Positions 6,537 to 28,464 of a stretch of DNA of 34,847 nt are shown here, in pieces. Under the pieces are notes generated by a model. It worked only from the letters and a program-made list of their open reading frames with translations. It had not been told where the DNA came from and did no database searches. Numbering within the stretch: position 1 is the stretch's first letter; the number at the start of each line of letters is the position of its first letter. The stretch comes from an uncultured Ignavibacteriota bacterium (lineage in GTDB: Bacteria; Bacteroidota; Ignavibacteria; UBA10030; UBA8401). The position numbers were made by a program, and so were the translations under genes. The stretch covers positions 1-34,847 of the forward strand of contig CAJBTU010000036.1 in assembly GCA_903958625.1 (NCBI GenBank), written 5' to 3'.

Positions 6537-9416
6537 CTATTTCATTACAACAAGTTTTTTCGTTGATGTAAACGTCCCGGCATGTATCGTATAAAAATAG
6601 ATGCCGGACGGTATATCCGCCGCATTAAACTGCACTGTATGTTCACCGGCAGAGAACTGTTCATTCATCAGCACGGCAATTTCTTTGCCGAGGACATCAT
6701 AGATCTTCAAAACCACAAACCGGGACGACGGAAGAGAAAACCGGATTGTCGTCGAGGGATTGAAGGGGTTCGGATAATTTTGCGACAATGTATATGTTGT
6801 CACATTCGTTTCTTTTGTTTCAACACCGGTGATCTTTTCGATCGAAAAAAGCGGACTCGACGAAACGATCGTTGTGTCGATAGCAGAACTGACCCGGACG
6901 ACGTATGATGAATCGGTCGTTATCCCCGTTACGGGAATTTTCCAAATATACCTTCCGGTATTCTCGGTGCTGTCTTTGATCTTCAGAACAAGTAAACCAT
7001 TTTTATATAACCGGACGTTTACTCGCTCCTCAAAATTATTCTCATACTTCAGCACATAGGAGCTGTTCGTCAAAAGTTTAAGTCCTGCCGTCGGATAGAG
7101 AACGGAGAGATACACGTTCGATGTTGTGAATGTCTGGATTTGTGACCATCCGCTCTTCCCGATCTCATTTACCGCTTTTGCACGCCAGTAATATTTTGTC
7201 TTCGCTTCATATCCGCTCCAAATTTTATACGATGCCATCAGTAGTGAATCATTATAGACCATTGTGGTAAATAATGAATCTTTGGCAATCTGCAGATGAG
7301 AACCCGTTATATGGCCGTCGGCACTCCACCGGATCAATACCTGTTTTGTTTGATTCGCAAGAGCATTTTGAAGCGGCGAAACCGGTATCGGCAGAGCCGG
7401 TGCCGTAACCTGAAACGGAATGCCGAGAATAAATTCGCCGAATTTCGTTGTTGTAACTGTAATCGATCCCTTCGCCGCATCGTAGACCGATGTCTGCGGG
7501 AAAAACATCCCCGTTCCTTCAAATTCTCTTGCGTAGACGATAACTTTGTCCAAATACGGATTTTGAAGCAGCACTGTACTGTCAAACGTGATATCGGCGG
7601 TAAACGATGGTATTCCCGTCTGCAGCACGACGAACCGGACAGGATATGTCATGGGAGCACGGTCGGGAAATTCCATTTTCAACGGGGAATACTTGAATCG
7701 TTTCACGGTAATAGAATTATACCCGAATGTTGCATCCGTCAGTTTCACTTTAACGCCGGTGCGGTTGGTGTCCCCTTTGTTGAAAGAGTACTCGTTGCCG
7801 GGCAGCACTTCGGCTATCGTAACATTTCCCGCAGGGACAATATGAGCATTCCACAAAAATTTCTGCGCGCGATAACTCGGCATCTTATCCAGTGAAGTCA
7901 TTTCGAACAGCACCTCACCCGTTGGACTCAACTCCGTAATCATGGTGCTTCCAACACCAGTCAAACTTGCGGATCCCCAGCCGATAACCGTGTTGCCGTT
8001 TGCAAGCCGCTGAACCGACCCGCGCTGCGGAGCATAGACATCCGGCGTATGACGGTACTGCCAAACCATTGTCGCTGTTTTGTTGACCTGATCGATCTTG
8101 TATTCTACGGCGCGCGAAAATACCTGCGGGTGAAGATTTCCGTTATCGAACAACATGAAATTCCCGTTCGGCAATCTTTTGAACGAATGCTGGAACGTGT
8201 AATAGTTCGCTTTGTTCGCTTCGTTCTCGCCGATGAACGTGAACTGATTGTATCTCCCTCCCATTCGCCACATGAATTCTCCGGTGATCCGGTTGATCTT
8301 TACGACCTCGCATGTGTTGCGGAAACTGACAAGGAAATTTCCGTCGGTATCAAGGTCATAGGCATTCACGTGAATGTAATCAAACGCTGCTGCTGTAGAG
8401 ACCATGTATGTTTCCGTGATCGCAACGTGGTCCCAGCTTCTCCATTGGAACACGACATTTTTCTGCAGATCCAATTCCTGAATGATGGAACCTACTACGA
8501 TCGCATTGGCGTTTCCCCCCGTTATGATCTTGCTCAGATCGAAATACTGAATGTCATACGCATGAAGAAGAACGTGACCGTTCGGCAGCATCATAAATTC
8601 GTGCGTATCGGCATCATATCCGTTGCCGGCCCTGAAACTGTCGATGACGGCGAACGATGAATCCATAATGCGATGCACGCACCGGCTCCCGCCGGCATAT
8701 CCCCAATCGCTGAAGGGATCGGCATACGATAGCATTCCGTTGGGCTGCACTTTCAAATCGTACACATGTCCTGCTTTACGAATGTATTTGACCACTTTCC
8801 CCGCATTATCGACCAAAAATAAAAAATGTCCAACACCGGCAATGTCATCCGAGGTTGTAAGAAAATAATATCCCGGGGCAGGATTGGTGACAGTATCAAC
8901 TTTGAATTTTGGAAAATCGGACGGAAGTGAATCGACCGATACTGATGCCGGAAAAACCTGTTCGCTCTTCTTGGCAAAAGTTGCCTTGGGAACAACTTCC
9001 CCTTCCTCCGTTACAGCAAAGGTGCGGGACAATGGTTCGGCTTGAGCAGTGACCGTAAACGAAAATGTTTTCGCTTCCAACTTCTTCCCGGATGCGGTTG
9101 TTACATTGCCGAAGAAATCAACCGTTACTATTTCGGACGGATTAAAAGGATATTTCGGGAGGAACAGCATTGTCTGTTGATCGTCGGAAAGGGTAAACGA
9201 GCCCGAATGAACTCCACTTGCAGAACCGGAAACGCGGATATCGCCGGCACCGACAGAGCTCAGTTCAATAATTTCGGAGCTCCGCAAAATGATATTTGTT
9301 TCACGGGAATTGAACTGCGAATTGGGGACCGGAGAGAGATACGTTATTGATTGCGCCCGGATTTCACCGGAACAAAGTATAATGGTAATAAGAAACAATA
9401 TTTGTAATGATTTCAT
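6537..9416 (-). CDS. T9SS-exported arylsulfotransferase (ASST)-family propeller protein, long form
   Basis: A 959-residue protein. The signal peptide is residues 1-22. Residues 25-122 form an SbsA-like Ig domain, about 175-545 the arylsulfotransferase-type beta-propeller, about 680-770 a fibronectin-III-like domain, 770-860 another Ig-like strand set, and 879-959 a T9SS domain (NYPNPFNPST). Repeated 'LPNGN' blade motifs are visible. His272, His349 (in DYIHVNAYD), Arg366 (in FLVSFRN) and His410 (in FQHSF) follow the His-His-Arg-His order of bacterial AssT enzymes, which transfer sulfate between phenols through a sulfo-histidine. The protein may be active, or the propeller may serve for binding. 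It lies 15 bases after the paralogue at 9432-11597 in the same operon. AAAGAAAG lies just before the ATG. The link to glycan breakdown is by position only. Confidence 0.83.
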   Translation of the reverse strand: MKSLQILFLITIILCSGEIRAQSITYLSPVPNSQFNSRETNIILRSSEIIELSSVGAGDIRVSGSASGVHSGSFTLSDDQQTMLFLPKYPFNPSEIVTVDFFGNVTTASGKKLEAKTFSFTVTAQAEPLSRTFAVTEEGEVVPKATFAKKSEQVFPASVSVDSLPSDFPKFKVDTVTNPAPGYYFLTTSDDIAGVGHFLFLVDNAGKVVKYIRKAGHVYDLKVQPNGMLSYADPFSDWGYAGGSRCVHRIMDSSFAVIDSFRAGNGYDADTHEFMMLPNGHVLLHAYDIQYFDLSKIITGGNANAIVVGSIIQELDLQKNVVFQWRSWDHVAITETYMVSTAAAFDYIHVNAYDLDTDGNFLVSFRNTCEVVKINRITGEFMWRMGGRYNQFTFIGENEANKANYYTFQHSFKRLPNGNFMLFDNGNLHPQVFSRAVEYKIDQVNKTATMVWQYRHTPDVYAPQRGSVQRLANGNTVIGWGSASLTGVGSTMITELSPTGEVLFEMTSLDKMPSYRAQKFLWNAHIVPAGNVTIAEVLPGNEYSFNKGDTNRTGVKVKLTDATFGYNSITVKRFKYSPLKMEFPDRAPMTYPVRFVVLQTGIPSFTADITFDSTVLLQNPYLDKVIVYAREFEGTGMFFPQTSVYDAAKGSITVTTTKFGEFILGIPFQVTAPALPIPVSPLQNALANQTKQVLIRWSADGHITGSHLQIAKDSLFTTMVYNDSLLMASYKIWSGYEAKTKYYWRAKAVNEIGKSGWSQIQTFTTSNVYLSVLYPTAGLKLLTNSSYVLKYENNFEERVNVRLYKNGLLVLKIKDSTENTGRYIWKIPVTGITTDSSYVVRVSSAIDTTIVSSSPLFSIEKITGVETKETNVTTYTLSQNYPNPFNPSTTIRFSLPSSRFVVLKIYDVLGKEIAVLMNEQFSAGEHTVQFNAADIPSGIYFYTIHAGTFTSTKKLVVMK

Positions 9417-9431
9417 GAAAACTTTCTTTAA

Positions 9432-11597
9432 TTATTTGAGTACTACCATTCGTTTGGTTGAGACAAACGTTCCGGCTGTGAGTGTATAAAAATAGATACC
9501 GCTTGGTACCTGTTGTGAAAAAATTGAAAATGGCACTCGATATGTACCGGCAGTCTGATATTGATCGACAAGAGAAGCGATCTCTCTTCCAAGCACATCG
9601 TATATCCGTAATGAAACGTGAAGATTCGAACCAATAGAATAGATAATGACCGACTCCGGATTGAACGGATTGGGAAAATTCTGCTGTAGTGAAAATCCGT
9701 CCGGCACACGTGTCTGGGTAGACCCAACACCTACGGCAACCAGCTGTTTCACCGAAACATTATCGATCGTAACATCAATATCGGATAGACCGCAGTTTAA
9801 AACGACACGGGCGTTATAATCCGTAGCATCCTGCATTGTAAAATCAAAAGAAAAATGTTTCAGCAACGTTGTTAACGCAGTCGTACTTGTTTTACTATAA
9901 TTAGTATTCGGCGAGGCAATCTTTTCAATCTTCGGTTCGATGGTACGGCTGCCCGCCGCATAGGCATCGAACTCAAGCCGGTATTTCAGTCCATTGATCA
10001 GCGGAATGCCTTCCTGTTTCAGTTGAACGTGCCACATCTGAGTTCCTCCGTTACCGATCTGCGCCAAAAATTCTCCCGCACCCGTCACAAACGGCGTTCC
10101 TGTTGCCGGCGAAGTGATAATATATTTCCATTGCTGCGTTCCGTTAGAGAAACCGCCATTTAAAACAAGACTTTCTCCGGGAGCAAAGAATTTGATGAGT
10201 GCATTTTCTTCGTTCGAAAAAGGACTTTCAATCCCCGCATTGTCTTTTGACGTAACGCGGAAATAGTAGCGTTTGCCGTTCATAAATCCCGTAAGATCAA
10301 CGGCACCCAGCGATGTCGTATCGATCAAACGGACCGGATTTGGTAGGGTATCGGCGTAGATCTGGAACGTATGTTTTAGCGCTTGATCAAATTTGTTGAT
10401 CAGCAGTGTGATCTTGTCTGTTCCTGCTTCAAGAATCAACACAGGAGCTTTTGCCTTCCCTTGCCATGGAAAACGGAACACCCTGTAACTGTGGGCATAA
10501 CTGACGAATCCCAATTCCATCGCTTTTGTGCCGGCTGGGGTTACTTCGGTCAGTTTCGGCAAAGAACCATCGGCCCAATCGATCAGCGTATTACCATTCG
10601 GCAGACGCTGAACGTTTCCCATCCACCACGTGTAGCGATCCGGAGTGTGGCGGTACTGCCAGACCAGCGTTGCTGTTTTTAATGTGGTGTCGAGTTTATA
10701 TTCTACGGCACGGGAGATTGCCGGCGAATGGAAATTCCCGTTGTCCATCATTGTATAATTGCCGTTTGGCAGCGCGCGAATATCATGCTGATATGAAGAA
10801 CCGTTGAACGGATCGTTCACATAGGTGAATTGATTGTTCTTTCCTCCAAGACGCCACATGGTTTTTCCCGTTTTACGGTTGATCTTCATGATCTCCGAAA
10901 GATGCCGGAACGAAACAACAATGTTACTGTCATTATCAACCGAAATGGCATTCGTGTGAATATAGTCGATCGTCTGCGCCGTAAGATTCTCATGCACGGC
11001 ATCGGTGATGTTCAGATTGTCCCAACATTTCCATTCGAACACAACCTTTCCGCTCGGATCGATCTCCTGAATGTTGTTTCCGATCACTGTTGCATTAGTT
11101 TTTCCGCCGCTCACCAGTTTGCTCATGTCAATAGTTTTATTTTCGAGCGCGATCAGCAGAACATTCCCGTTAGGAAGAATTTGCAGTTCATGTTCATCGG
11201 TTCCGTATCCGTTCTTCGCGGTGATCTCGCGTGTCACCGTATACGATGAATCCATCTCGTAGAAACGGTAATACGGATCGGCAAGCCGGTAGGAGAGCAA
11301 ACCGTTCGCCTGCAGTTTAAAGTCGCGGGCGTACGCAGGCATCTTCCGGTAAAAAATCGGTGATCCGTTATTATCAAGGATGGCAATGTACGGTGTTCCG
11401 CCCCAGTTGTTGATGAAGATATATCCCGTATCGGGATTGTTCTTCACCGTAATGCTTACGTGCGGATAATCTGACGGAACAGAAACACCATTGGGAAAAA
11501 CAAACGAAGATGTTGACGGTTTTATAGTGATCGATTGTGCATTAAGGATCGAACACGGTATTGTGACTAAGAGTATTAACAGCAGTAATTTTTTCAT
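9432..11597 (-). CDS. T9SS-exported arylsulfotransferase (ASST)-family propeller protein, short form with FnIII and CBM-like modules
   Basis: A 721-residue paralogue of the next gene downstream. The signal peptide is residues 1-21 (ends LNAQ). The propeller covers about 45-380 with 'LPNGN' blade repeats. His136, His214 (DYIHTNA), Arg231 (VVSFRH) and His271 (YQHD) keep the order and near-equal spacing seen in the long form and expected for AssT-type catalysis. A FnIII-like domain follows (about 385-470), then a CBM4/9-like sandwich (about 476-618, starting LVLNGGFSNGTQQW and ending VTIDNVSVKQ), then a T9SS domain (NFPNPFNPES at 640, ending MVVLK). It lacks the N-terminal Ig domain of the long form. 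The Shine-Dalgarno is weak. A 154-base gap separates it from the GH5 upstream, so it may have its own promoter. Its substrate is unknown. Confidence 0.83.
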   Translation of the reverse strand: MKKLLLLILLVTIPCSILNAQSITIKPSTSSFVFPNGVSVPSDYPHVSITVKNNPDTGYIFINNWGGTPYIAILDNNGSPIFYRKMPAYARDFKLQANGLLSYRLADPYYRFYEMDSSYTVTREITAKNGYGTDEHELQILPNGNVLLIALENKTIDMSKLVSGGKTNATVIGNNIQEIDPSGKVVFEWKCWDNLNITDAVHENLTAQTIDYIHTNAISVDNDSNIVVSFRHLSEIMKINRKTGKTMWRLGGKNNQFTYVNDPFNGSSYQHDIRALPNGNYTMMDNGNFHSPAISRAVEYKLDTTLKTATLVWQYRHTPDRYTWWMGNVQRLPNGNTLIDWADGSLPKLTEVTPAGTKAMELGFVSYAHSYRVFRFPWQGKAKAPVLILEAGTDKITLLINKFDQALKHTFQIYADTLPNPVRLIDTTSLGAVDLTGFMNGKRYYFRVTSKDNAGIESPFSNEENALIKFFAPGESLVLNGGFSNGTQQWKYIITSPATGTPFVTGAGEFLAQIGNGGTQMWHVQLKQEGIPLINGLKYRLEFDAYAAGSRTIEPKIEKIASPNTNYSKTSTTALTTLLKHFSFDFTMQDATDYNARVVLNCGLSDIDVTIDNVSVKQLVAVGVGSTQTRVPDGFSLQQNFPNPFNPESVIIYSIGSNLHVSLRIYDVLGREIASLVDQYQTAGTYRVPFSIFSQQVPSGIYFYTLTAGTFVSTKRMVVLK

Positions 11598-11751: not shown

Positions 11752-12972
11752 CTATTGCTTTTTCAGCCCCAGTGCATTCATATATCCATCATTCACAGTG
11801 CACCGGCCAAACTTGCAGTTTTCCAGATAATCGGCAAATGCTTTTTGGATCACTTCCCTGGACGGTTTTGCATCACGGATATCTTTATACGTTATTCTTG
11901 GCTTGTTCGCATACGTTATGACCGAATCCCATTCCGCCGTTCTTTTTATTGAGACCATATTGCTTGCTGCATCCATTTTTTTATAGGGCCAGAAACACCA
12001 GCCGAAATTATTCTTCTCGTTCAATCTGCGCCACGAGTCGATCCACTGGTCGGTATTCTCGCCGGATTCGCCCATCCAGATCGGCACGTTATACCTCTTC
12101 ATAAAATCGGCATATTCCTGTACCATCGGCTGTGTTGTATCGCACCAGTATTTGTGGTACGTATAGACCGTTTTTTTATCGAACGGTGGGCCGAATATCT
12201 TGAAGTTTCCGTTCCATTGCGCACCGCCAAGAAAGACAATATGATTTGTATCAACCGCACGAACTGCGGCAACAATCCGTTTGTACAACGGTTCAAGTTT
12301 TTGGTTAAAGTGCGACGAATCAAAATAGGTGGCGATCGGTTCGTTCAGAAAATCATATCCAATCACGATTGGTTCGCGCGCATATCGCTGTGCGATCTCT
12401 TTCCAAAGGTCAACGGTAAGCTGCTGCGCTTCGGCACTCTCAAATAGGTACGGATAGCCGAAGCTGTCATCAATATTATCGCCGGTTTGTCCGCCGGGAG
12501 CGCAATGCATATCCAGCACAACATAGAGGTTCTCTTCTTTGCACCATTTGATCACCCGGTCCAGCATTTCAAACCCTGGTCCGGCAAATCTCGTATCGTG
12601 ATCTTCCGACACAAATAAACGATAGTTGAACGGAACGCGGACGGAGTTCAATCCGCTCTTTTTAATGAACGCGATATCCTCTTTGGTAATGTAATTGTCG
12701 CGGTACTGTTTCCAGAATTTTTTCGTATCTTCCGGTCCCAGCAACTGGTTAAAAGCTTCATTGATTCGCTGCGGAGAATTCGTGTTGGTGAATTTGAACA
12801 TATATCCTTCCGGCACCAGCCAGTTACCAAGATTGATACCGCGTAACATGATCGGTTTTCCGTCCGGGGTGACTATGCTGCTGCCACGCGTTGAAACAAA
12901 CGAAGTTTGCTGGGCAAAAGAAACCGATGTGACAATAAGAAAAAGAGCGATGCTGAAGAAAGAAGTTTTCAT
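11752..12972 (-). CDS. Secreted GH5 beta-glucanase/glucosidase (single domain)
   Basis: A 406-residue protein with a signal peptide (residues 1-20, ends SVSFAQ) and a complete GH5 barrel: LRGINLGNWLVPEGY at 43, SVRVPFNY at 110, DMHCAPGGQ at 154, acid/base Glu211 in DFLNEP, HKYW at 273, and nucleophile Glu302 in IWMGESGEN. No sorting domain or lipobox is present, so it is probably periplasmic. That contrasts with its longer paralogue at 1-1642. GH5 enzymes with this LGNWLVPEGY pattern include exo-acting beta-1,3- and beta-1,6-glucanases. Substrate assignment is inference. Its ATG shares one base with the stop of the GH16 gene upstream (TAATG), which implies coupled translation and a joint role in beta-glucan digestion. 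Confidence 0.9.
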   Translation of the reverse strand: MKTSFFSIALFLIVTSVSFAQQTSFVSTRGSSIVTPDGKPIMLRGINLGNWLVPEGYMFKFTNTNSPQRINEAFNQLLGPEDTKKFWKQYRDNYITKEDIAFIKKSGLNSVRVPFNYRLFVSEDHDTRFAGPGFEMLDRVIKWCKEENLYVVLDMHCAPGGQTGDNIDDSFGYPYLFESAEAQQLTVDLWKEIAQRYAREPIVIGYDFLNEPIATYFDSSHFNQKLEPLYKRIVAAVRAVDTNHIVFLGGAQWNGNFKIFGPPFDKKTVYTYHKYWCDTTQPMVQEYADFMKRYNVPIWMGESGENTDQWIDSWRRLNEKNNFGWCFWPYKKMDAASNMVSIKRTAEWDSVITYANKPRITYKDIRDAKPSREVIQKAFADYLENCKFGRCTVNDGYMNALGLKKQ

Positions 12973-13805
12973 TAGTTTGCCTTTTTATACACTCTCACAT
13001 AATCAACATACATCCGCTGCGGAAATGTTGTGAACGCGTCCGGACTTCCGGGCCAATTTCCTCCTACGGCCACATTCAGAAGCATGTGGAACCGCCGGTC
13101 GAACGGCGACATCATATACGTCATATAATATTGAATACCATCAACATACCATGTGAAGCTGGTCGAATCCCAGACAACGGAGAACGTATGATAGCTGCCG
13201 GCAAACGTGCCTTGAGACAAAGAATACGATCCCCCTTTTTGTAAATGATGCTGAACGTCGGAACCGTAATGGATCGTTCCGTACACTTTGCTTGTTTCGT
13301 GTCCGAGCAGTTCCATGATGTCAATCTCACCGCTGGTCGGCCATCCGCCGTATTCCCAATCCGAAGGAAGCATCCAGATGGCGGGCCAGATTCCCTGACC
13401 GTAAGGAAGTTTTGCGCGGATATCAAATCGTCCGTACAGCCAGTCCCCTTTGAACAGGGTCCTCATGCGTGCGGATGTGTACGATTTTCCGGAATACGTT
13501 TCTTTGTTGGCTTGAATAACAAGCTTACCGCTGTCGATAAATGAATTTTCGGGACGTGACGTATAATACTGAAGTTCATTGTTCCCTCCGCCGTTCCCAT
13601 TCACTTCATATCCCCATTTTTTCAGATCAACCGCAGTACCGCTGAATTCGTCGTTCCACACCAGCGTCCAACCGGGCACGACAGGAACAGAGTCCTGCAC
13701 AACTACCGGATCAACAATTTTTGACTGTTCGCCAGTTTTACATCCGGCAGTCTGGAATCCAAAGACAAGGATAAATGCGGCTGAGATAACGGCAATGATT
13801 TTCAT
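12972..13805 (-). CDS. GH16 beta-glucanase lipoprotein (laminarinase-type active site)
   Basis: I prefer the ATG at 13805 because the lipoprotein signal (MKIIAVISAAF, then TAGC) starts there and GAAGAAA precedes it. An ATG at 13823 would add six residues. Mature Cys is residue 22 from the chosen start. The GH16 jelly roll fills the rest: LVWNDEFSGTAVDLKKW, NELQYYTSR, GRFDIRAKLP, and the catalytic GEIDIMELLG with nucleophile Glu160 and acid/base Glu165, ending in MYVDYVRVYKK. The extra Met between Asp and the second Glu is the beta-bulge form typical of laminarinases and related GH16 groups, not of lichenases. It is probably anchored in the outer membrane facing the periplasm or surface. A hairpin lies just upstream, between this gene and the sugar transporter. 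Confidence 0.93.
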   Translation of the reverse strand: MKIIAVISAAFILVFGFQTAGCKTGEQSKIVDPVVVQDSVPVVPGWTLVWNDEFSGTAVDLKKWGYEVNGNGGGNNELQYYTSRPENSFIDSGKLVIQANKETYSGKSYTSARMRTLFKGDWLYGRFDIRAKLPYGQGIWPAIWMLPSDWEYGGWPTSGEIDIMELLGHETSKVYGTIHYGSDVQHHLQKGGSYSLSQGTFAGSYHTFSVVWDSTSFTWYVDGIQYYMTYMMSPFDRRFHMLLNVAVGGNWPGSPDAFTTFPQRMYVDYVRVYKKAN

Positions 13806-13849
13806 AAAATTTTCTTCGTACATTTATTGTGCACCGAGATTGTTGTTTG

Positions 13850-15248: not shown

Positions 15249-16319
15249 TCATCCGGTTTTTTTATATACTCTTACCCAGTCCACATATACCGAACACGGG
15301 AAAATTGCTTCAGGAACGATCGCCCCGCCGTATGTTTTGTTGTCGTTCCCTCCAACGCCCGCACTGAGAATTGCAAAGAAGGAATGTTCGAACGGATGCC
15401 ATTCGGCAAAATGATTGGAATACTCTGACAATAGTCTTCTCTTTCCGTTTATTGTCCTAACCCCGTCCTCATCTTGTCCGTCACCTATACCGCCGTCAAA
15501 CGCATCTCCGTCGGTGAAATAATGCACATGGTACGTAGTACCGTCAACAGCAAATTCAATTCTATTGCTGAACCATTCTATTCCATAAATATGAAACGCG
15601 CTGCTCCCTGCTGTCGTATCGCCTGCCTTCGGCGGATATCCTCCATAGGAGGGGGAAGAAAGCGGGACATCGTGCGTACCGTACGAATAATAAGCGCCTT
15701 TGTGACCGTGGTTCCAATCGGCATATTCATTGTTGAGCCATGACCATGCGTAATGCACGCTCCCTAAATTATGATACGGGATGGAACCGACGTATTCCAT
15801 AATATCGATCTCACCCCCCTGCGGCCACATAATGTAGTTTTGATCAGCCGGTTTCTCTGCCGGCATCATCCAGAACGCAAATCCTTGCCCTTTATACAGC
15901 ACATCGCTTGCCTTCACCCGTGCTTCAATCCTGTTTCCTTCTCCCCACGAACCTTTCCCGCTGGTCGTGATCCTTCCGCTGGTATAATCACGGTCGATGT
16001 ATCGTTCTTTCCGAGTGATGATCGCCAGGCATCCTCCTTCGGCGGACTGTACGCCCTGAACGATGGTGACATTCTCTTTCCTATTGGTTGCCCGGTCAAG
16101 CTGACCTGTACCGAAATCACCGTTGACACCCGTTCCCGTTTCGTAGTTCCATTTTGAAAGATCGAGCGCAGTACCGTCGAATTCATCGTTCCAGACAAGC
16201 GTATAGTTCTCATAGGTAGCCGGCACCGTTGTTTTCACCGCCGGTTCCTCGACGGGATTTTTACATCCCGTCAAAAAAAATATGATCGCCGTGAGGAATA
16301 TGATCGCAGCACATTTCAC
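15249..16319 (-). CDS. GH16 beta-glucanase lipoprotein, GTG start (laminarinase-type active site)
   Basis: A 356-residue protein. The start codon is GTG, chosen because it heads a clean lipoprotein signal (MKCAAIIFLTAIIFFLTGC, Cys19). No in-frame ATG suits. The GH16 fold shows LVWNDEFDGTALDLSKW at 41, EARVKASDV at 132, and QGGEIDIMEYVGS at 167 with nucleophile Glu170 and acid/base Glu175, ending YVDWVRVYKK. An acidic insert (DGGIGDGQDEDG near 275-286) sits in a late loop and may bind a metal ion or extend the substrate cleft. It shares the beta-bulge active site of the GH16 at 12972-13805, but the two differ widely in the cleft loops, so they may prefer different linkages or chain lengths. 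It starts 10 bases after the GH3 stop, probably translated by readthrough of the same ribosomes. Confidence 0.92.
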   Translation of the reverse strand: MKCAAIIFLTAIIFFLTGCKNPVEEPAVKTTVPATYENYTLVWNDEFDGTALDLSKWNYETGTGVNGDFGTGQLDRATNRKENVTIVQGVQSAEGGCLAIITRKERYIDRDYTSGRITTSGKGSWGEGNRIEARVKASDVLYKGQGFAFWMMPAEKPADQNYIMWPQGGEIDIMEYVGSIPYHNLGSVHYAWSWLNNEYADWNHGHKGAYYSYGTHDVPLSSPSYGGYPPKAGDTTAGSSAFHIYGIEWFSNRIEFAVDGTTYHVHYFTDGDAFDGGIGDGQDEDGVRTINGKRRLLSEYSNHFAEWHPFEHSFFAILSAGVGGNDNKTYGGAIVPEAIFPCSVYVDWVRVYKKTG

Positions 16320-16329
16320 TATACTGTGC

Positions 16330-18141
16330 TTATTGAACTTTTTCTTTGTATGTCAATCCGTATCCTAACGGAAAGAGCGGATCATATTCTTTATCGCCGA
16401 CATTGATCGGCACCTGCTGCATCGTCTTCGGCCATGAATGCGGAAGTTTTCCCGAAAAATTATAATCCCCGAACAGCACATCGGCAACACCCTGACCCTC
16501 TGTTCCCGGCAGCCATGCAGCGACAAATGCGTTCGATTTTTCCAACGATGAATTGATGATCATCGGACGGCCGGAGAGCAGGATGACAACAACAGGAATT
16601 CCCTTTGCCTTCATGTTGCCAATTGCATCAAGGTCCGATTTTGACAAGCCGAGGTCATCCCTGTCACCCATCATTTCGGCGTACGGTTGTTCACCAACAA
16701 CAAGGATACCGATATCGCTGCTGTCGGCACCGCTGCCGTCTATTGAGTATGAGATCTTTGTTTCTTTGGAAACGGTGTTCTTTATTGCCTGAAGGATGGA
16801 CGTTCCACCCGAAGTAACATTTCCGCTGCTCCCCTGCCAACCGATCGTCCAGCCGCCGCACTGCATGCCGATACTGTCGGCACCTTTTCCTGCAACATGA
16901 AACTTCTTTGCATTCTTCGATAACGGTAAAACTGCGTTGTCATTCTTCAGAAGCACAAGAGATTGACGAACCGCTTCACGCGCTACTTCACGATGTTCTT
17001 TTGATCCGACCTGCGCCAATAGCTCCTTGTTCGCATAAAGATTTCCGGCAAGGTTCATGGAAAGTTTCACGGAGAGAATGCGTTTTACCGCATCGTCGAT
17101 CCTGCTCATCGGAACCTTTTTCTTTTTTACGAGATCTTTCAGCAAGGTAATGAAGTCGATATAATTATTCCTCTGGCCATGTCCGTTGGGGATCATTGCC
17201 ATATCCAATCCCGCATTGACTGACTTTTCGATGGCCGACCGGTAATTCGTATCAAGCTGATCGATCGCCGCCCAATCCGACACCAGAAATCCTTCGAACT
17301 TCAATTCTTTTTTCAACACATCGGTCAGCAGGTATTTATTACCATGCATTTTCACACCATTCCAGCTGCTGTACGAGGGCATCATGGATCGCGCACCTGC
17401 TTTGATCCCTTCAACATATCCCGGCAGATGGACGGTACGCAGCGTTGCTTCATCGACCTCGGTATTTCCCTGATCTTTCCCGTTCGTAGTTCCGCCGTCT
17501 CCCAGAAAATGTTTTACGCACGCCAATGCGGAAGCCGGATTACTCAGATCCGATCCCTGCATTCCTTTGACAAATGCTGCGCCCAATACTTTGACAATTT
17601 CCGGGTCTTCGCCGAAGCTTTCGTATGTTCGTCCCCACCGTTCGTTCCGTGAAACTGCAACACACGGCGCAAAATCCCACTGAACTCCCGTCCCTCTCAT
17701 TTCGGCCGCCGTCACCGCAGCGATCTTTTCGACGATCTGCGGATTCCGGGTGGCACCGAGAGCGATGTTATGCGGAAAGATCACGGCACCATCAACGTTA
17801 TTGTGGCCATGCACGGCATCAACGCCAAAGATCAGCGGAACCTTCAGCCGCGTCATCTGTGAAAACCGCTGAAGCGTATCATACGTCGCCGCCCATCCCT
17901 TGGGTGTGATATCAGAAATTTCTGAACTGCCGCCCCACAGGACGGAACCGAGAGAATATTTTATTATATCGTCGTAGTGATTGGTGATTGCAGTATAGTC
18001 AACCTGCGTCATTTGACCGATCTTTTCTTCCAGGGTCATTTTCTTCAACAGTGCTTGCACCTGCGCATCAATACTATTTGTTTTTGGCTGAGATAGTGCG
18101 AGCGTGAGGAAGCAGACGAAAAAAGCGAGGACGAGCTTCAT
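16330..18141 (-). CDS. GH3 beta-glucosidase / exo-beta-glucanase
   Basis: A 603-residue secreted protein. Signal peptide: residues 1-17. The N-terminal barrel carries IGQMTQVD at 41, [12 protein letters not shown] at 105, [14 protein letters not shown] at 167, KHFLGDGGT at 210 and the nucleophile Asp289 in [10 protein letters not shown]. The C-terminal alpha/beta sandwich (about 385-600) carries [13 protein letters not shown] and [11 protein letters not shown] at 493, where the acid/base Glu is expected. The two-domain size and these motifs resemble barley ExoI and bacterial ExoP-type enzymes, which remove glucose from 1,3-, 1,4- and mixed-linkage glucans. No sorting domain or lipobox is present, so it is probably periplasmic, acting on imported oligosaccharides. 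AAAGGA is seven bases before the ATG. It lies 47 bases after the permuted GH16 gene. Confidence 0.95.
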
Positions 18142-18188: not shown

Positions 18189-19988
18189 TTATTGTATTAA
18201 TAACATTTTCCTTGTTGAGATGCTGCTGCTGCCTTTAACAACATACAGGTATGCACCGGATGAAAGCGCGTTTCCGCGGTTATCTCTGGCATTCCACGTC
18301 AGCGAATGTGCGCCGCGCTGCTTCATGCCCAGATTTTTTTCGTTGACCAGTCTTCCCAGTGTATCAAAAAATTGAATTGAAATATTATCGTCGTTGGGTA
18401 TAGAAAACGGGATAACCGTTGAGCCGTTGAACGGATTCGGATAATTCTGCCCGATGTTCCAGCGTTCCGGCGTTGTTTCACTTTGTTCGTTAGCGCCAGT
18501 TGATAGCTGGATGATAGTGATGCCGTTGATCACCGCATTGTCGACCAGCGACATGAAGTGTATGTCGAGCATCCCCTCTTTCACTACGACATTCGGTATG
18601 ATCTTCTGATACTGAACACCTTTGCCCATTTTGGCAAAAAGATCAAGATTTTTTTCCACAACGTTCCCCTGAACGGCAATGTCGAATAAGCGCTTGCCTG
18701 CAGCCGTAAAATAGTTTTCCGACATCAGGAGTGTTACAAAATATGTTCCGCTGGGAACCCGTACCCGATACTCAGCAGATCCATTCAGTTCGGTCTTAAA
18801 TATCACCGGATCGGAAGAGCCGCTTGTTGTATTGGAATTTTGGAATTGCTGACCATCAAGATATCCATATTCAAGATTCGCATTCCACATTTGATCGGGC
18901 AGAAAGTCGTTATACGCCGGACCTCCGCAATTGATCTTCAGGGGAAACGTTAATCGTTTTGGTTTTGTAATCGTGACACTTTTTCCCGTCAGCGTATTGG
19001 CCGGAGAAAACCGGTCTTTAATATTCATCAATATTACGCTGGATAAAGTTGAAGTATCGTAGCCGGCAAGGGTCAAATGAACGGTTTTTTTATCGGAGTA
19101 AAGGTCAGCCTGTATGACCGTATTATTTTGGACCAGATAATTTGTGAGTTTTACGGCAGATACGCTGTCAACTTCTTCAAAGAAATTTATCACAACGCCA
19201 TCCGCTTCGGCGCGTGCCGACACAACATTCGGCGGAACGATATCCTGATAGCCAAGATTAGTATCCTTTGTGAGACAAAGAATCATCATACCGTCTTTGA
19301 ACACGATATTGTCCGGCACAAAGTCACATTGGTTGTCGCTCCATGTATGCGTTGCACGGTCCCATCGGGTTGCATCATACGCAGTAAATTCATCTTTCCA
19401 TTGAGAAGTGAAATTATTATCTGTTCCGCTTGTTCCTGTTCCCGGGGTGTACGACGAATAACTGACAAAGTCGTAGTATGCAAACGCCGGTAAAGAGTTT
19501 TCGCTCCATTGGCCCGACCAGTTTGGTGCGGTCTGGATCCAAATATTCATCATGATCTTTTGTGCATAGGTCAGTGTTTGTATGTGCGAGCCGGTCTGAC
19601 GGTACGATTCAACACCATCGATGAACCAGGCAACGTAGGTCGGGGTCCATTCGAACGCATATGTATGGAATTCTAAACTCGGGTTAAATGGTGTTTGCCG
19701 ACGTCCGACATGGTTCGTTGTTCCCGGGGTAATCGCATTATACTGGATGTCGTCGGCATAGCGTCCGAGCACTTCAATATCGATCTCGTTCCAGGGTGTG
19801 GTTGGAAAATTATCGTTATAAGTAAAGAACGAGGATAACATTCCTTCACGCTGTGCCGATTTCATTCGTACTTCAAAACGGCCGTACAAATAGGATGTCT
19901 TGGTGCGGTACTCTGCCCCTTTATAGATCTTTGCGTTTATCAGCGCGGGCAAAAAAAGGATAGCAATCAGTATAATTCGTTTTATCAT
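18189..19988 (-). CDS. Circularly permuted GH16 lichenase with Ig-like, malectin-like and T9SS domains
   Basis: A 599-residue protein. Signal peptide: residues 1-19. Residues 23-180 hold the part of GH16 that normally comes second: [19 protein letters not shown], then [10 protein letters not shown] (nucleophile Glu68, acid/base Glu72, lichenase type without the extra Met), then [19 protein letters not shown]. After a [10 protein letters not shown] linker, residues 195-243 hold the part that normally comes first: [14 protein letters not shown]...[16 protein letters not shown]. This order is that of the naturally permuted 1,3-1,4-beta-glucanase of Fibrobacter succinogenes, whose sequence I recall as closely similar, including the YTPG linker. 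An SbsA-like Ig domain (about 252-342), a malectin-like domain (about 346-493) and a T9SS domain (NYPNPFNGS at 515) follow. It overlaps the GH2 gene by ATGA. Likely activity: mixed-linkage glucan cleavage at the surface. Confidence 0.93.
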
Positions 19989-22303
19989 TTTAACACGGTC
20001 ATTTTTTTCGTTTCAACAAAAGATCCCGCCCTTAAAGTGTAAAAATACACTCCGCTCGGAAGCACTCTTCCGGACAATGTCGCAGAATGGACACCGGCAT
20101 CTTGTTGTGTGTTCACCAGTATTGCAATTTCTTTTCCAAGCAGATCAACTATTGTCAGCGTAACATAACTTTGCACCGGCATCTGGTAACTGATCACCGT
20201 CGTTGGATTAAAAGGATTAGGATAGTTTTGATTGAGTAAAAATGCTTCAGGAACTTTCCCGCCGGTTCTTTCCGCCGCAGCCGTGATGTTTTCGCTATTG
20301 TTCACGTATTTTTTGTACATACTTGTCAGATTCGTAAACACCGGCTTTGGACTGGATCGGTCCATTCTCAGCAGGCCCATACTCTGGTACCCGAGTGTCT
20401 GCTGATGTGTATACCAATCGAACGCACACCACCACGTTACACCCATCAGCGGTGCCGCGGTTCTGGCTTTCCCGTTTTGATCGATCGGTGCAAACAGCGA
20501 AAATGCCGCGAATGTTGAATCGAACGTCTTTACTTGTTCCTGCTGCGATGCGCCGTTCTCGCTCGACCAGTAGCCGTATTCCGTATCAATCACCGGTTTG
20601 TTCGGATTTGCCGTCACGGCATCTTCAATGAATTTTTTCGTTCCGGCAAACATGGTGCTGCCGTGGAATATCCCGAAATACATCGTCCATCCGCGAACAT
20701 CACATTCTTCCTGTGAAAGATCAGCCGGACCCGGCCTGTCCGCTGCGGCAGACTGGGTAATCAAACGGCCGTCAGGATAATCCTTGTTCAATTCCGTACG
20801 GACGGCACGGTTAAAAACCGCTCTACCCGTTACCTCTTTGCATTCATTCGACGTGCTCCACATGGCAATGGAGGGACGGTTATAATCGCGGAAGACCATT
20901 TCACGGAACATCTGGTGATGAATGTGCCGCAGATTATTCTGAATATCCCACGATGTGGCATCATCAAACCACCAAACCGGGATCTCTTCCATGATGACCA
21001 ATCCTAAACGGTCGGCAACAAGATAGGTATAGGGATGATTCGGATAATGTCCCGTGCGGAGATAATTTGCATTCATCGATTTGATGGTGCTCAGATCGGA
21101 AAAAATGATGTTTTTGGGAACGCTTCTTCCATAATTCGGATGGTCCTCATGCCGTGCGATACCGTGAAGGAAAGCTTGTTTTTCGTTCAGCAGAAATTTG
21201 CTCCCGACGGTTTTCACGGTCCGGATGCCGAATTGCGTTGAAAATTCATCAACGATAACACCATTAAGGGAAAGTGACACCTTGAGAATATAAAGATTTG
21301 GTTTTTGCGGTGACCAAAGTAAAGGATTAGAAATAGAGAAACTACGAAGAGCAATTCCGATGGAATCCAGTGGTATCGTATGAAAAGAGGTCAATACACC
21401 ACCGCTTGTAATTTCATCGCCGGTCAACTCTGCCGAAACTTCTTTCGTCAGCGAAATGGAATCCGTTTTTGCTTTATAGACACGGACGGTAACGCCAACA
21501 GTTGATTCGGATGGAAGTCTGTTGGAAATAGTAATTTTTGTTTGCACAAGTCCGTCGGTATTTATTGGAACAACATCTGCACGGATTACGGATACCGGAT
21601 TTGCAAAATCGATATACACATCGTGTATGATACCCGTATAATTGAACCAGTCGCAGGTATAAAACGGAACAATATCATTCCTCTTTCCCCACGGAAGATT
21701 GTCAACGCGCACGGCGATGACATTGACGGTATCTGTCCGTATAATCTTTGTGACATCAAAGGCAAAGGGCGTGTAGCCTCCTTCGTGATAACCAAGATAC
21801 TGTCCATTCACCCACACGTCACAAATATAATTGACAGAATAAAAATTCAGCGTTGCTTTCTTGCCTTTCAACGAATCGGCCACGCTGAACGTGCGCCGGT
21901 ACCAAACGCCATCCTGATAATATTCGGGCGTTTTTTCATTCGCATTCAATTTATTTTCGACACCCGGAAGAGTTCTGTATTCCCACTGGGAATCGTCAAA
22001 TCCGACTGCAAACCGGTTTGCCGCTTCGTTGGTGACAAGCGCCAGTCCGCTGCTTGCGCGGTTATACATTGAAATCGTATGATTGGCCGGAAAACGGAAT
22101 TTTTTCCAGAGACCGCCGAGAGAAATCGTCGGACGCAGTTGTTTTTCAAATGACGGAACAGGAATTCCATTTTGATACGGAACGGCTATACCCCCGACAC
22201 GCAGCATGAGCAGTGTGGAATCCAATGTAGGATATTGCGCGTAGGATGACACGCACACGGTCAGGATCAAAACGCTTATTAGTGATATACTCTGTCTGTT
22301 CAT
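19985..22303 (-). CDS. T9SS-exported GH2 glycoside hydrolase (beta-galactosidase/glucuronidase-like)
   Basis: I prefer the ATG at 22303 (772 residues), which heads the signal peptide and has AGGGAA upstream. A GTG at 22315 would add four residues but overlaps that ribosome site. The GH2 sugar-binding domain covers about 55-235 (DGVWYRRTF; VWVNGQYLGYHEGGYTPF), an Ig-like domain follows, and the barrel starts at about 365 (GIARHEDHP; NANYLRTGHYP). Acid/base Glu487 is in AMWSTSNEC and nucleophile Glu575 in PVIDTEYGYW. A T9SS domain (NYPNPFNPT) closes the protein. The usual 'GNE' is 'SNE' here. Specificity cannot be read from sequence: in a beta-glucan locus it may act on side chains or on beta-glucosidic links. 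It is tightly packed between the GH9 and permuted GH16 genes. Confidence 0.9.
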   Translation of the reverse strand: MNRQSISLISVLILTVCVSSYAQYPTLDSTLLMLRVGGIAVPYQNGIPVPSFEKQLRPTISLGGLWKKFRFPANHTISMYNRASSGLALVTNEAANRFAVGFDDSQWEYRTLPGVENKLNANEKTPEYYQDGVWYRRTFSVADSLKGKKATLNFYSVNYICDVWVNGQYLGYHEGGYTPFAFDVTKIIRTDTVNVIAVRVDNLPWGKRNDIVPFYTCDWFNYTGIIHDVYIDFANPVSVIRADVVPINTDGLVQTKITISNRLPSESTVGVTVRVYKAKTDSISLTKEVSAELTGDEITSGGVLTSFHTIPLDSIGIALRSFSISNPLLWSPQKPNLYILKVSLSLNGVIVDEFSTQFGIRTVKTVGSKFLLNEKQAFLHGIARHEDHPNYGRSVPKNIIFSDLSTIKSMNANYLRTGHYPNHPYTYLVADRLGLVIMEEIPVWWFDDATSWDIQNNLRHIHHQMFREMVFRDYNRPSIAMWSTSNECKEVTGRAVFNRAVRTELNKDYPDGRLITQSAAADRPGPADLSQEECDVRGWTMYFGIFHGSTMFAGTKKFIEDAVTANPNKPVIDTEYGYWSSENGASQQEQVKTFDSTFAAFSLFAPIDQNGKARTAAPLMGVTWWCAFDWYTHQQTLGYQSMGLLRMDRSSPKPVFTNLTSMYKKYVNNSENITAAAERTGGKVPEAFLLNQNYPNPFNPTTVISYQMPVQSYVTLTIVDLLGKEIAILVNTQQDAGVHSATLSGRVLPSGVYFYTLRAGSFVETKKMTVLK

Positions 22304-22319
22304 GGTCTGCAACACTTCC

Positions 22320-24321: not shown

Positions 24322-25353
24322 TTAGAATAAAATACCTACCGAAAACTTTTGGACATTTTTTAACCGCGCATAGTCTTGATATGCATAATCAATCGCAAGT
24401 TGAGTGCTTCCGATAAGCGCCTGCTGAATTCCGAATCCCAGCGTGAACCGTTCTTCGGCATTCTGTAAGAAGAGCGACTTATATCCGCCGCGCAGGAAGA
24501 TAAAATCATTAAACGCATATTCGCCGCCGACATCCACGCTCTCATAATTATCACTCGGATGCGATGCATCCACGGCAAGCACCAACCGGTTTCCATCGAT
24601 CGAAAAAACATTGTAGGCGATACCGACTTTGAAATTCAACGGAAGCGTCCACTCATCCGTTCGTGCATCAGCAGGAATGTGTCCGTTGTTTCCCGAGGTA
24701 AAGGGGTCTGGATCGTAGAGCACGATCGTATTGTTCCCCAGCAGCCGCATTTTAGAACCGAAATTCGTGATAGACATGCCGAGCGTGATACCGTCGAACG
24801 GCGTCTGGTACTTCACACCGATATCTATCGCTATAGCCGATGCGCTCATCTTCCAGATCTTCTGATAGATAAACTTTGGATTGAATCCGATCGCAAATTT
24901 GTCCGTCAGTTTTAATGCATAGGTCACACCGATCGCCGCATCGGATACGCCGAACATTTCCCCCGTACCGGAAGGATTCTCAACGGTGGTAACACGCATT
25001 TCCGGTATGCTTGACGATGTCATGTTCAATCCCACAACGCCAAGGTTCCCAAGATTAATGGTTGCTCCGAGATAATTGTATTTTACGTCGGCAAGCCACT
25101 GAGTGTAGTCAAAGACGATCCTGTAACCGGAAAGGTCGGCTATCCCGGCCGGGTTCCAATACATGGCGCTTTGGTCGTCGGCAACGGCAACAAATGCCGT
25201 TCCCATTCCCAATGCACGCGCACCCTGGGCAATGGTGAGGAACGGAGCCGCAGTTGTGCCACGCTTTGAAACATCCGACACAAAATTTTGAGCAGGAAGC
25301 GCCGTAGCAAGAATGAACAGTATGCTGAACAGTGTTGTGATCTTCGATTTCAT
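24322..25353 (-). CDS. PorV/PorQ-family outer-membrane barrel protein
   Basis: A 343-residue protein. Signal peptide: residues 1-21 (ends ALPAQ). The mature start has ARALGMGTAFVAVADDQSAMYWNPAGIADL, the hallmark of the PorV/PorQ group (FadL-like barrels), followed by alternating beta-strands up to KFSVGILF with a terminal aromatic residue, as in outer-membrane barrels. PorV is the T9SS shuttle that carries cargo with C-terminal sorting domains to the surface attachment complex. A paralogue placed inside a locus with nine such cargo proteins may be dedicated to them, or may serve as a partner of the TonB receptor. It lies 18 bases after the 1030-aa gene and four before the GH9 gene. No other T9SS part is in the window. 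Confidence 0.85.
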   Translation of the reverse strand: MKSKITTLFSILFILATALPAQNFVSDVSKRGTTAAPFLTIAQGARALGMGTAFVAVADDQSAMYWNPAGIADLSGYRIVFDYTQWLADVKYNYLGATINLGNLGVVGLNMTSSSIPEMRVTTVENPSGTGEMFGVSDAAIGVTYALKLTDKFAIGFNPKFIYQKIWKMSASAIAIDIGVKYQTPFDGITLGMSITNFGSKMRLLGNNTIVLYDPDPFTSGNNGHIPADARTDEWTLPLNFKVGIAYNVFSIDGNRLVLAVDASHPSDNYESVDVGGEYAFNDFIFLRGGYKSLFLQNAEERFTLGFGIQQALIGSTQLAIDYAYQDYARLKNVQKFSVGILF

Positions 25354-25371: not shown

Positions 25372-28300
25372 TTATTTGATAAGTGCAAATTTTCCGATAT
25401 AGGTTCCTACATTCGGCGCGTCAACGTGGAAAATGTACAGACCATACGCAACATCCGTTCCGTCCTCAGAAATAAGATTCCAGGAAAGCGATCCATTGGT
25501 GGCGGCGGATTCTTTCACCAGCGTCTTTACCAGCGAACCGGCAACGGTATAAATGCGGATCGTGCATTGCTGCGGAAGATTGACAAAATCAATCTTTCTG
25601 TCGCCGCGGCCCGATGCATAGGTATTCTTCGGTTCCCACGATGCATATCCGACATAAGGATTGGGAACAACACTGATACCGCTGAGCTGATCTTTTGCAA
25701 GGCCAACGTCGGTCCGTGACGCTTTTGTTTTTATGGAAAAATAATCTCCCGTAAAGAACGGTCTCTTCGTTTTGAAGATAAATTTATCTCCGGCTTTCGG
25801 CAGTGAGAGCGTATCAAGATAGAAATAGGAGATCTTCCAGGGGATCCAAAGATCGGCGTTGTTATTCGTAAATTCCAACACCTTAATAAAATCTCCTGAA
25901 CTTAATTTACTGTTTCCGTCATTATCCTGGATGATGAATTTATTCCGATGGCCGAACGTTGTATTGGTGATCGTGAAGTTGACCGGGATCGGAGGATAAA
26001 CGACCGGATCGAGATCTCCGTTCGAAGTATCGACCGTTGCGGCAAAATATTTAATTTCATAGTCGCTCGGCCATAATTTATTGAGAGAAGGAGCGGAACT
26101 ATCCGGGACTACCCAGACATACACCGACGGTTTACCGACCGTCCAGCCCATTGTATCAAGAACAATCTTCGTATCATTTTTAACGGCGATCGTCATGCCG
26201 TCAAACGGCGTGCTTGTTTTGTTTCCCGAAACGTCGGCGATCTTCACGTTTCGTATCACCGTATCTAGGGCGCTTCCGAGTTTCCTGATAACACTGACCG
26301 ATTTTGTTCCGTATTCGGGGAATTTTCCGCTTGAATCAAATTGGACCTTATATTCCGTTCCGGTCAATATCGTATTTGGATTGACGATCTGAATAGAGAT
26401 AGAACCGGTACCGATACCGTTACTGACACGGTCCAATGAACCTTCAATCTGCGGCGGAACATATCCTGCCGCTGCTGCACTCGGAACAACGACTGCGCAA
26501 TTGATGTCGACAAATTTCAGTTTACCGCTCACATCCTCGATCATGATCTTTGGTGACTCCGTCGGCTGCAAACCAGTTTTTCCATAGAACGGATCTCCCT
26601 GATCGTACGAAACCACGGCGTAATAATATTTCACTCCGTTCTTGACATCTTTATCGATATAGGAGTGCTGCAAACCGGAGTTATCACCCCGCCAGAAGTG
26701 TGCGCCGTTGATCCCGATGGGATCCGGACCGTTGATCGTATCGATCACGTCAAATTGCGCAATCGGTTTCCAGTATTTTGGCTGCCCCTTCGAATCGGTG
26801 ATCGTTTTCACATCCGTGAATTTCGATTCCTGGCTTCGTAGGACCATATATCCTTCAAAATCTTTTCTTCGTAAAAATCTGTCGTACGAATTTTCCGCAA
26901 TGTTATCCCAGTACAGAAACACTTGTTTATCTCCGGCAACGGCCGTCAAATGCGGCGTAAGCGGCGGAGCAGAAAAATTATAGTATGCATTATAAATTGC
27001 CTGAACGGTGGTCTTATTGAAAACAACCTGGTCAAGATCGTTACCCATAATCAGTGCCATCGAGAATCGTTCCCGAGCACCTTTGTTCAGCGGAAATGGT
27101 CCTGAAGAGAAGACGATGCTGATATTCGAATTCACAATACCGGTATCAACAAATCCTCCGGTCATTTTTCTCCAGACAACTTCATTGTTCTTCGGCCATA
27201 CACCGTTCGGCCCCTTGTCGGCCAGCGGTGTCAGCGATACGGCCGTCAAACCGATCTGGTCCGATTCATCCTTATCGGTCTCATCAAAATTCGGCTCGCC
27301 ATGCGTCGGTAATCCGTCGCCTTCGCCGGCATCAGAACCAAAGTATTGGGGATCGAACGGACCGACACCGTCTGCACCAAGATCGTCGTTCAGCGGTTCA
27401 CCCTTATCCCATTTACCGTTCTTATTTACATCCTCATATCCAACCCAGTTATGGTTGTTATCAATACCATCGTCGCGTTTTTCATCGATCAAACCGTCTT
27501 CATCGTCATCGATATGGTTTTCCGAATTTCCCGGACTTTCCAAATATGCATATCCGTAATAACCGGTATTCCAGTTCCCATATTTTGGTTCCCCTTTCCC
27601 GACGTGATCCCATGCATAGCAAAGGTCAAGAACCGTGCTGAAATTTGCATCATCATTTCCGCTGGATGGACCGCCAACACCGGGATCGGAATAGAAACCG
27701 AAACACGCACTGTCATATTTGGTATCAGATAAATTGACGATGTCGTAATGCCAGAATATGACATCTTCCGCGAGAACGTGAGACCATTGAAAGCCGCGAA
27801 CTTCTACACGTAAGCCAAGTCCGCCACGCGTTGAGTCCGATGCCAATGGATAATAATTGTACGGAGGACGTTTATATTTTCCATCCTTCGAATCGTCCAT
27901 AACAAAGAATGTTTCAAAATCGGCATTGTTCACACCTCGGCCGAAATATCCATACCAATATCCGTTCCAATCCGGTGTTTTCCCGAGCGCAGAGGGCCAT
28001 ACTGTCGGGAATGACATGGAATCCCTGTTAATGGCCGGTGTTCTCGCAACATTTTTATTCATGTTCATGTATCCGGGAACCGGTTCAAATCCCCAGATCA
28101 ATCCGTCCACCGGGTCCTTCGGCATTTCTTCGCGATACGATGTCTCCAGCGGATGTATGATCTGATTGTTTCCGGGAGCTCTTACCTGTGCTCCAACAAG
28201 AACGCAAACGCCGTCAAGATATTGATGACCGGATTGAGCGGGCCATTCTAGCGACGGCGAATAGGGCCATTGTCCGACTTCACCATTGTTGTAATACAAT

Positions 28301-28464
28301 GTCCGGACGTTATTCCCATCCATAATTCCTTCACGCCGGTTCACATACGCACCATGGGCATCGTCACGATAGCCTTGAATTTGCGGACTCACCTGACCAA
28401 ACAACGGAACAAATGAAACACAGACCATGGATAAAATAGATATTGCGGAAAATTTAAACTTCAT
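25372..28464 (-). CDS. Large secreted protein with Asp-rich (calcium-binding-like) module and FlgD/T9SS-like C-terminus
   Basis: A 1030-residue protein of unknown function. Signal peptide: residues 1-23. Residues 30-310 are aromatic-rich and beta-like (WNGYWYGYFGRG). Residues 317-400 are dense in Asp, Asn and Gly (HIDDDEDGLIDE, EDVNKNGKWDKGEP, DDLGADGVGPFDP) and resemble dockerin/thrombospondin-3-type calcium loops. A FnIII-like domain lies at about 503-640. The C-terminus has VVPNPYVGYASWEP, then a FlgD-like Ig domain (IRIYTVAGSLVKTL, ending FALIK), probably a divergent T9SS sorting domain. GAGGAG at 28471-28476 gives the strongest ribosome site in the window. The gene sits between the TonB receptor (22 bases) and the PorV-like gene (18 bases). 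It could be the receptor's surface partner in place of SusD, but no sequence feature proves that. Confidence 0.75.
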   Translation of the reverse strand: MKFKFSAISILSMVCVSFVPLFGQVSPQIQGYRDDAHGAYVNRREGIMDGNNVRTLYYNNGEVGQWPYSPSLEWPAQSGHQYLDGVCVLVGAQVRAPGNNQIIHPLETSYREEMPKDPVDGLIWGFEPVPGYMNMNKNVARTPAINRDSMSFPTVWPSALGKTPDWNGYWYGYFGRGVNNADFETFFVMDDSKDGKYKRPPYNYYPLASDSTRGGLGLRVEVRGFQWSHVLAEDVIFWHYDIVNLSDTKYDSACFGFYSDPGVGGPSSGNDDANFSTVLDLCYAWDHVGKGEPKYGNWNTGYYGYAYLESPGNSENHIDDDEDGLIDEKRDDGIDNNHNWVGYEDVNKNGKWDKGEPLNDDLGADGVGPFDPQYFGSDAGEGDGLPTHGEPNFDETDKDESDQIGLTAVSLTPLADKGPNGVWPKNNEVVWRKMTGGFVDTGIVNSNISIVFSSGPFPLNKGARERFSMALIMGNDLDQVVFNKTTVQAIYNAYYNFSAPPLTPHLTAVAGDKQVFLYWDNIAENSYDRFLRRKDFEGYMVLRSQESKFTDVKTITDSKGQPKYWKPIAQFDVIDTINGPDPIGINGAHFWRGDNSGLQHSYIDKDVKNGVKYYYAVVSYDQGDPFYGKTGLQPTESPKIMIEDVSGKLKFVDINCAVVVPSAAAAGYVPPQIEGSLDRVSNGIGTGSISIQIVNPNTILTGTEYKVQFDSSGKFPEYGTKSVSVIRKLGSALDTVIRNVKIADVSGNKTSTPFDGMTIAVKNDTKIVLDTMGWTVGKPSVYVWVVPDSSAPSLNKLWPSDYEIKYFAATVDTSNGDLDPVVYPPIPVNFTITNTTFGHRNKFIIQDNDGNSKLSSGDFIKVLEFTNNNADLWIPWKISYFYLDTLSLPKAGDKFIFKTKRPFFTGDYFSIKTKASRTDVGLAKDQLSGISVVPNPYVGYASWEPKNTYASGRGDRKIDFVNLPQQCTIRIYTVAGSLVKTLVKESAATNGSLSWNLISEDGTDVAYGLYIFHVDAPNVGTYIGKFALIK

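Follow-up and report, generated by a model that had tools for sequence, protein, structure and literature searches.

A circularly permuted GH16 lichenase-type enzyme from an uncultured Ignavibacteriota bacterium and its relatives in several phyla

Here, we describe a gene from an uncultured Ignavibacteriota bacterium. The product of this gene is very probably a GH16_21-type lichenase that has been circularly permuted in nature; it is homologous to the enzyme of Fibrobacter succinogenes, a member of a different phylum, and most likely derives from the same permutation. The gene, a single open frame of 599 codons with its ATG at position 19988 and its stop at 18189, occupies 18189-19988 on the reverse strand of the window, by which we mean the whole stretch of 34,847 nucleotides that was analysed. 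What is new is that the permuted enzyme is not a rumen oddity but a large family spread over several phyla, with a standard layout and a locus of its own.

To our knowledge, a single lichenase with a solved structure, that of a rumen bacterium, has so far exemplified circular permutation in nature. Its permutation has reportedly been known since the 1mve structure, and Tsai et al. (2003) are said to have described the F. succinogenes 1,3-1,4-beta-D-glucanase as a 'natural circularly permuted jellyroll protein'. The family described here comprises dozens of proteins, and its phyla also contain canonical-order relatives, in some cases with both forms on one contig. Such matched natural pairs allow one to ask how permutation bears on folding, export and the fusion of domains. 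It also supplies a set of uncharacterised putative glucanases whose cleft differs from that of the Fibrobacter enzyme. The text of the GH16 subfamily paper (PMC6827312) mentions neither permutation nor Fibrobacter, subscription literature lying outside our scope.

Permuted order and predicted fold

The protein is composed of a signal peptide, the permuted GH16 domain, an Ig-like domain, a malectin domain and a type IX secretion system (T9SS) sorting domain, all of which are encoded on the reverse strand. The signal peptide (residues 1-19; 19932-19988), its cleavage site placed by eye from the sequence, coincides with an N-terminal helix at residues 2-17 of the whole-protein model, and the GH16 domain begins immediately past it. 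Segment A (residues 20-180; 19449-19931), the catalytic part of the jelly roll that lies behind segment B in ordinary GH16 proteins, carries the catalytic EIDIE motif (residues 68-72, with E68, D70 and E72, identified by alignment; 19773-19787) and the FEWTP...WFIDG strands (residues 113-125). A linker of 10 residues (181-190; 19419-19448) then joins the old C-terminus to the old N-terminus and leads into segment B (residues 191-247; 19248-19418), the strands that open ordinary GH16 proteins and here follow the catalytic part, with the motif beginning WKDEF..D..RWD at residues 197-237. Beyond this lie an all-beta, Ig-like domain recognised from the model and conserved in the permutant family (residues 253-343; 18960-19232), the malectin domain found by the Pfam profile PF11721 (residues 346-490; 18519-18953) and the C-terminal sorting domain with its NYPNPFN motif (residues 516-595; 18204-18443).

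The GH16 profile PF00722 matches at 102.4 bits against a cut-off of 22, and the malectin and T9SS domains proposed in the earlier note are real in that both pass their curated cut-offs (PF11721, 79.7 bits against 23; for the tail, PF18962, 29.8 against 27, and TIGR04183, 39.2 against 23). No Pfam family matches the Ig region (about 253-343), even with the E-value relaxed to 10; the whole-protein model (pLDDT 91) places an all-beta domain at about 255-341, followed by the malectin region and the sorting domain. A Foldseek comparison of this model with a viral library returned nothing but meaningless multi-domain matches.

The order of the two segments is evident from the motif positions given above, and it is borne out by two comparisons of sequence. 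In a phmmer search of the PDB, the best match is the F. succinogenes enzyme (3axd/1mve, also 1zm1; 173.5 bits, E 6e-50), with which residues 17-252 are colinear in one stretch that passes through the linker into the WKDEF segment, at 85 of 229 identical residues (37%), linker included. This match is not due to chance, and the end-to-end alignment together with the matching linker upholds the homology to the Fibrobacter permutant that had been proposed. Canonical lichenases align with the protein in its native order over residues ~22-179 alone. When the segments are rejoined as B+A, their scores rise (3i4i from 122 to 138.5 bits, 3wvj from 116 to 133, 1byh from 112 to 128) and each match becomes one near-full-length stretch (6-214, 12-213 and 10-215, respectively), while the Fibrobacter chains break into two pieces against the rejoined order. 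The catalytic segment thus stands ahead of the usual start and the switch falls at the linker, as the earlier note had read it; its observation that the two other GH16 proteins of the window have the ordinary order also holds, as both carry WNDEF at their N-terminus.

A structural comparison with the Fibrobacter enzyme and with ordinary lichenases led to the same order. An AlphaFold2 model of the permuted domain, built from 64 aligned sequences (mean pLDDT 96.7, pTM 0.92), was compared with the PDB using Foldseek, where nine Fibrobacter chains ranked on top (TM 0.92-0.94). Those of 1mve and 1zm1 superpose in chain order over 234-239 columns at a TM of 0.94 (1zm1_B with an rmsd of 1.5 over 234 columns), and segment B is therefore predicted to complete the jelly roll, within the limits of a model. 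Next in the ranking are 1cpm and 1cpn, engineered permutants of a Bacillus lichenase, over 224 columns; the chain-order alignment of 1cpm implies that a lichenase opened in the laboratory at almost this loop still folds. Such permutants (1cpm, 1cpn, 1axk, 1ajk and 1ajo) are man-made, whereas the permutation of the 599-residue enzyme is natural and widespread. The canonical GH16_21 lichenases (Bacillus 3o5s, 1gbg and 2ayh; 3wvj; the mouse-gut 3i4i) share the fold, the catalytic motif, the Phe at the -1 subsite and the Trp at the +1 subsite but have the opposite segment order; they rank after the engineered permutants, at a TM of ~0.6, and match segment A only, over 152-158 columns, because a sequential alignment ends where the order switches. 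In the model, residues 191-247 complete the fold, including the stretch 195-243 whose failure to close the jelly roll would have spoken against a permutation, and segments A and B together form one closed, predicted jelly roll with all catalytic residues.

Segment B could instead begin a second, truncated GH16 copy, or the order could reflect an error of metagenome assembly; this alternative has a negligible probability. Duplicated copies do occur in the family, since one Fibrobacterota locus (L174, described below) contains a tandem repeat of the permuted domain. The open frame here, however, holds no second GH16 copy and no second A segment, the model packs well as one domain, and the same order recurs in a 94% identical protein from another genome of the genus and in 80 further relatives from several phyla.

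Distribution of the family and origin of the permutation

Relatives were sought in 84,980 species genomes with a two-sequence query alignment, and the best 80 of 504 relative-encoding stretches were read; the Fibrobacter row in this alignment and in the trees carries one extra alanine, which should change neither. By their record names, they come from Ignavibacteria/Ignavibacteriales, Bacteroidetes, candidate division KSB1, Neomarinimicrobiota, Caldithrix/Calditrichia, Fibrobacter and Cytophaga, with a few labelled otherwise. Segment order was called in all loci read with two HMMs built from segments A and B, which gave 187 A-B, 49 B-A and 17 undecided parses, some genes having been retrieved more than once; under the same two HMMs, the parse is A-B for permutants and B-A for the ordinary GH16 proteins that these genomes encode. 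Among the relatives kept, all 81 non-redundant proteins with both segments have the order A-B. Closer to the source, a permuted copy is present in 16 of 60 near relatives of the source genome, itself included.

The full A-B-Ig-malectin-T9SS layout, labelled in relatives with HMMs made from the 599-residue protein, is found in 50 of the 81, in Ignavibacteria, KSB1, Marinimicrobia and Calditrichota, and is therefore a family trait rather than a peculiarity of this gene. The 'new C-terminal layout' of the earlier note is accordingly new in comparison with F. succinogenes but not unique, and no other layout is as common in the family. The relatives from Fibrobacter and Cytophaga have no malectin domain and, with the exception of a weak match in L066, no Ig domain, and the Fibrobacter relatives read here also lack the T9SS tail. 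Separately, three permuted lichenases (L157, L160 and L163) represent a further layout, with ~270 extra residues ahead of the catalytic domain and matches to neither Ig nor malectin.

The closest canonical-order relatives found come from the same phyla and have the order B-A, with no malectin or Ig segment in those scanned. Three of them (L168:12479-13483, L231 and L232) are 43-48% identical to each other or to the 599-residue protein, and two more (L216 and L217) are 51-53% identical to the canonical protein of L168. In three genomes both forms lie on one contig, 8 kb apart in one (G353:C420, L168) and 29 kb apart in the others (G589:C8 and G590:C5, L216 and L217).

Whether the permutation arose once was addressed with trees in which the segments were rejoined in canonical order, so that the order itself was invisible to the tree. 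In a quick tree, which includes long canonical rows, all 69 permutants fall on one side of a branch with an SH-aLRT of 87. In a careful tree of 75 rows, from which most of those rows were removed, two order changes are required, and exactly one change suffices in 35% of bootstrap trees; a single permutant clade is nevertheless not rejected there (AU p=0.33). An arrangement in which the canonical FCB lichenases form a group with all permutants except those of Fibrobacter is rejected, being 67 log units worse (AU p=0.0005). The linker motif TPGxG, present in the TPGQGEGGSD linker of F. succinogenes, occurs in 40 of 69 non-redundant permutants, and 14 more have a YTP-like linker.

These results bear on the alternative that the permutation here is independent of that in Fibrobacter and struck the same loop because few loops of a jelly roll tolerate new ends. 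Engineered Bacillus lichenase permutants at the same and at other loops fold (1cpm, 1ajk, 1ajo), and the careful tree does place some permutants among canonical ones. Against this stand the identical junction and TPGxG motif, the single permutant clade of the quick tree and the rejection of the tree that separates the Fibrobacter permutants from the rest, and we regard an independent origin as quite improbable. Together, the AU tests and the common linker make one permutation event the better reading, and a single origin is thus favoured, though not proven, by the sequences. Of the earlier proposal of one event within the FCB group, carried by descent or transfer, the common origin therefore stands as the preferred reading, with the low frequency of single-change bootstrap trees as its weak point; transfer may also occur, since L166, whose genome belongs to the same phylum as Cytophaga, groups among Fibrobacterota.

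A broader picture, which we hold to be evenly poised between right and wrong, is that the permuted form may be the main lichenase of several FCB phyla. It would have originated a single time from a canonical lichenase, which some genomes still carry alongside it, and most lineages would have fixed it together with the Ig-like, malectin and T9SS domains; the well-studied Fibrobacter enzyme would be a derived branch that lacks these domains and has an altered cleft. If this is true, the genomes in which both forms coexist offer a direct test of the reason for a natural permutation.

A junction scar was also considered, in which a tandem duplication would have left the C-terminal 'GYxG' as a second copy of the N-terminal 'YKGAE', and was discarded as its match is not above chance when compared with other registers. 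Ancestral intermediates of the form B-A-B or A-B-A were not found among the loci read, with the exception of L174 (947-2451; Fibrobacterota genome G372). Here, the permuted domain forms a tandem repeat of 751 bp, 95.9% identical and 756 bp apart; a single frame reads A-B-A and is broken close to where the second A ends. The high identity of the copies points to a domain that was permuted first and duplicated recently, and not to an ancestor; the duplication is of the kind that permutation-by-duplication models require.

Active site and likely substrate

By homology, E68 is the nucleophile and E72 the acid/base, with D70 between them, and the E, D and E of the EXDXE motif are kept in all non-redundant permutants aligned. 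All of the Fibrobacter residues E11, F40, Y42, W54, E56, D58, E60, Q70, N72, W105, W141 and W148 are conserved in the alignment with the 599-residue protein, including the lichenase residues F55, Y57, W66 and W157 beside the catalytic triad of E68, D70 and E72. GH16_21 is characterised by a Phe platform at the -1 subsite and a strictly conserved Trp at the +1 subsite, and its licheninase activity by cleavage confined to the beta-1,4 bonds of mixed-linkage glucan (PMC6827312). In the alignment, these two residues correspond to F55 (Fibrobacter F40) and W157 (Fibrobacter W148). Among the residues named in the description of the subfamily, Y57, W66 and W157 match, and the site of Tyr-24 falls at H214-T215-W216, in an uncertain register.

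Two positions set the protein apart from the Fibrobacter enzyme, W203 being replaced by H214 and R137 by M146. The non-Fibrobacter permutants have His at the first position in 51 of 56 cases and Met at the second in 54 of 56. Read by eye, the W203 site is ASHTF or GTHTF in canonical FCB relatives, and the R137 site is KIMMNLW in canonical lichenases. As the same His and Met are found in canonical relatives, it is the Fibrobacter W203 and R137 that look derived, and the H214 and M146 states may be ancestral.

The changed cleft does raise the alternative of a permuted GH16 enzyme that is not a lichenase, with beta-1,3-glucanase, cellulase-like or transglycosylase activity in its place. The lack of conservation of W203 and R137 would fit such an activity, and no characterised relative was found outside Fibrobacterota. 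The GH16_21 residues are otherwise retained, however, the two substitutions recur in canonical enzymes as described above, and the best NCBIfam family is the BglS beta-glucanase at 160.8 bits, below the full-length cut-off of 300 as expected where only part of the model can align. We therefore consider another activity unlikely. The protein is likely to be a surface-exported endo-1,3-1,4-beta-glucanase of a conserved beta-glucan locus, with mixed-linkage glucan as its presumed substrate.

A conserved locus and a putative export route

The start of the gene overlaps by four bases the end of an upstream GH2 gene (19985-22315), beyond which are a GH9 gene, a PorV-like outer-membrane protein (24322-25353, reverse strand), a protein of 1030 residues (25372-28464) and a TonB-dependent receptor. 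Downstream are a GH3 beta-glucosidase-type enzyme as the next gene (16330-18141), the two GH16 genes of ordinary order (15249-16319 and the laminarinase-like 12972-13823, all three on the reverse strand), an MFS transporter and a GH5 gene. Three genes of the genome exceed the Pfam cut-off for GH16, and the window contains them all.

Neighbourhoods were counted for the 61 relatives whose sequence spans 9 kb or more. Homologues beside the permutants are most often the PorV-like protein (37 of 61) and the 1030-residue protein (36, across phyla), followed by GH5 (25), GH3 (22), the laminarinase-like GH16 (21) and the TonB receptor (12). Many Ignavibacteria keep the order receptor, 1030-residue protein, PorV-like protein, permuted lichenase and GH3, and in KSB1 and Marinimicrobia the 1030-residue and PorV-like genes are retained in the same order; the loci of Fibrobacter and Cytophaga have none of these neighbours. 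The recurring neighbours and their kept order indicate a beta-glucan utilisation locus. The 1030-residue protein, which lies between the receptor and the PorV-like gene and has no Pfam match above cut-off, is possibly a surface glycan-binding partner of this type of locus, and the PorV-like protein may be a dedicated partner for its cargo and not the housekeeping PorV of the T9SS.

The T9SS component SprA is present in the same genome (198.9 bits). We outline a putative route in which the protein would cross the inner membrane by means of its signal peptide and the outer membrane through the type IX system, after which it would be retained at the cell surface or released. The malectin domain, as a putative binding module, would hold the glucan while the catalytic domain cuts beta-1,4 bonds adjoining the beta-1,3 kinks of mixed-linkage beta-glucan by a retaining mechanism, using E68 as nucleophile and E72 as acid/base. 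The products would then pass to the neighbouring GH3, GH5, GH9 and GH16 enzymes, with uptake through either the MFS transporter or the TonB-dependent receptor.

By similarity to the tail of the 599-residue protein, the source genome encodes ~150 T9SS-like C-terminal domains, which amounts to heavy use of type IX secretion. Two adjacent T9SS-tailed proteins in the window (6537-9416 and 9432-11597) match arylsulfotransferase (ASST) Pfam families, an unexpected presence beside a glucan locus.
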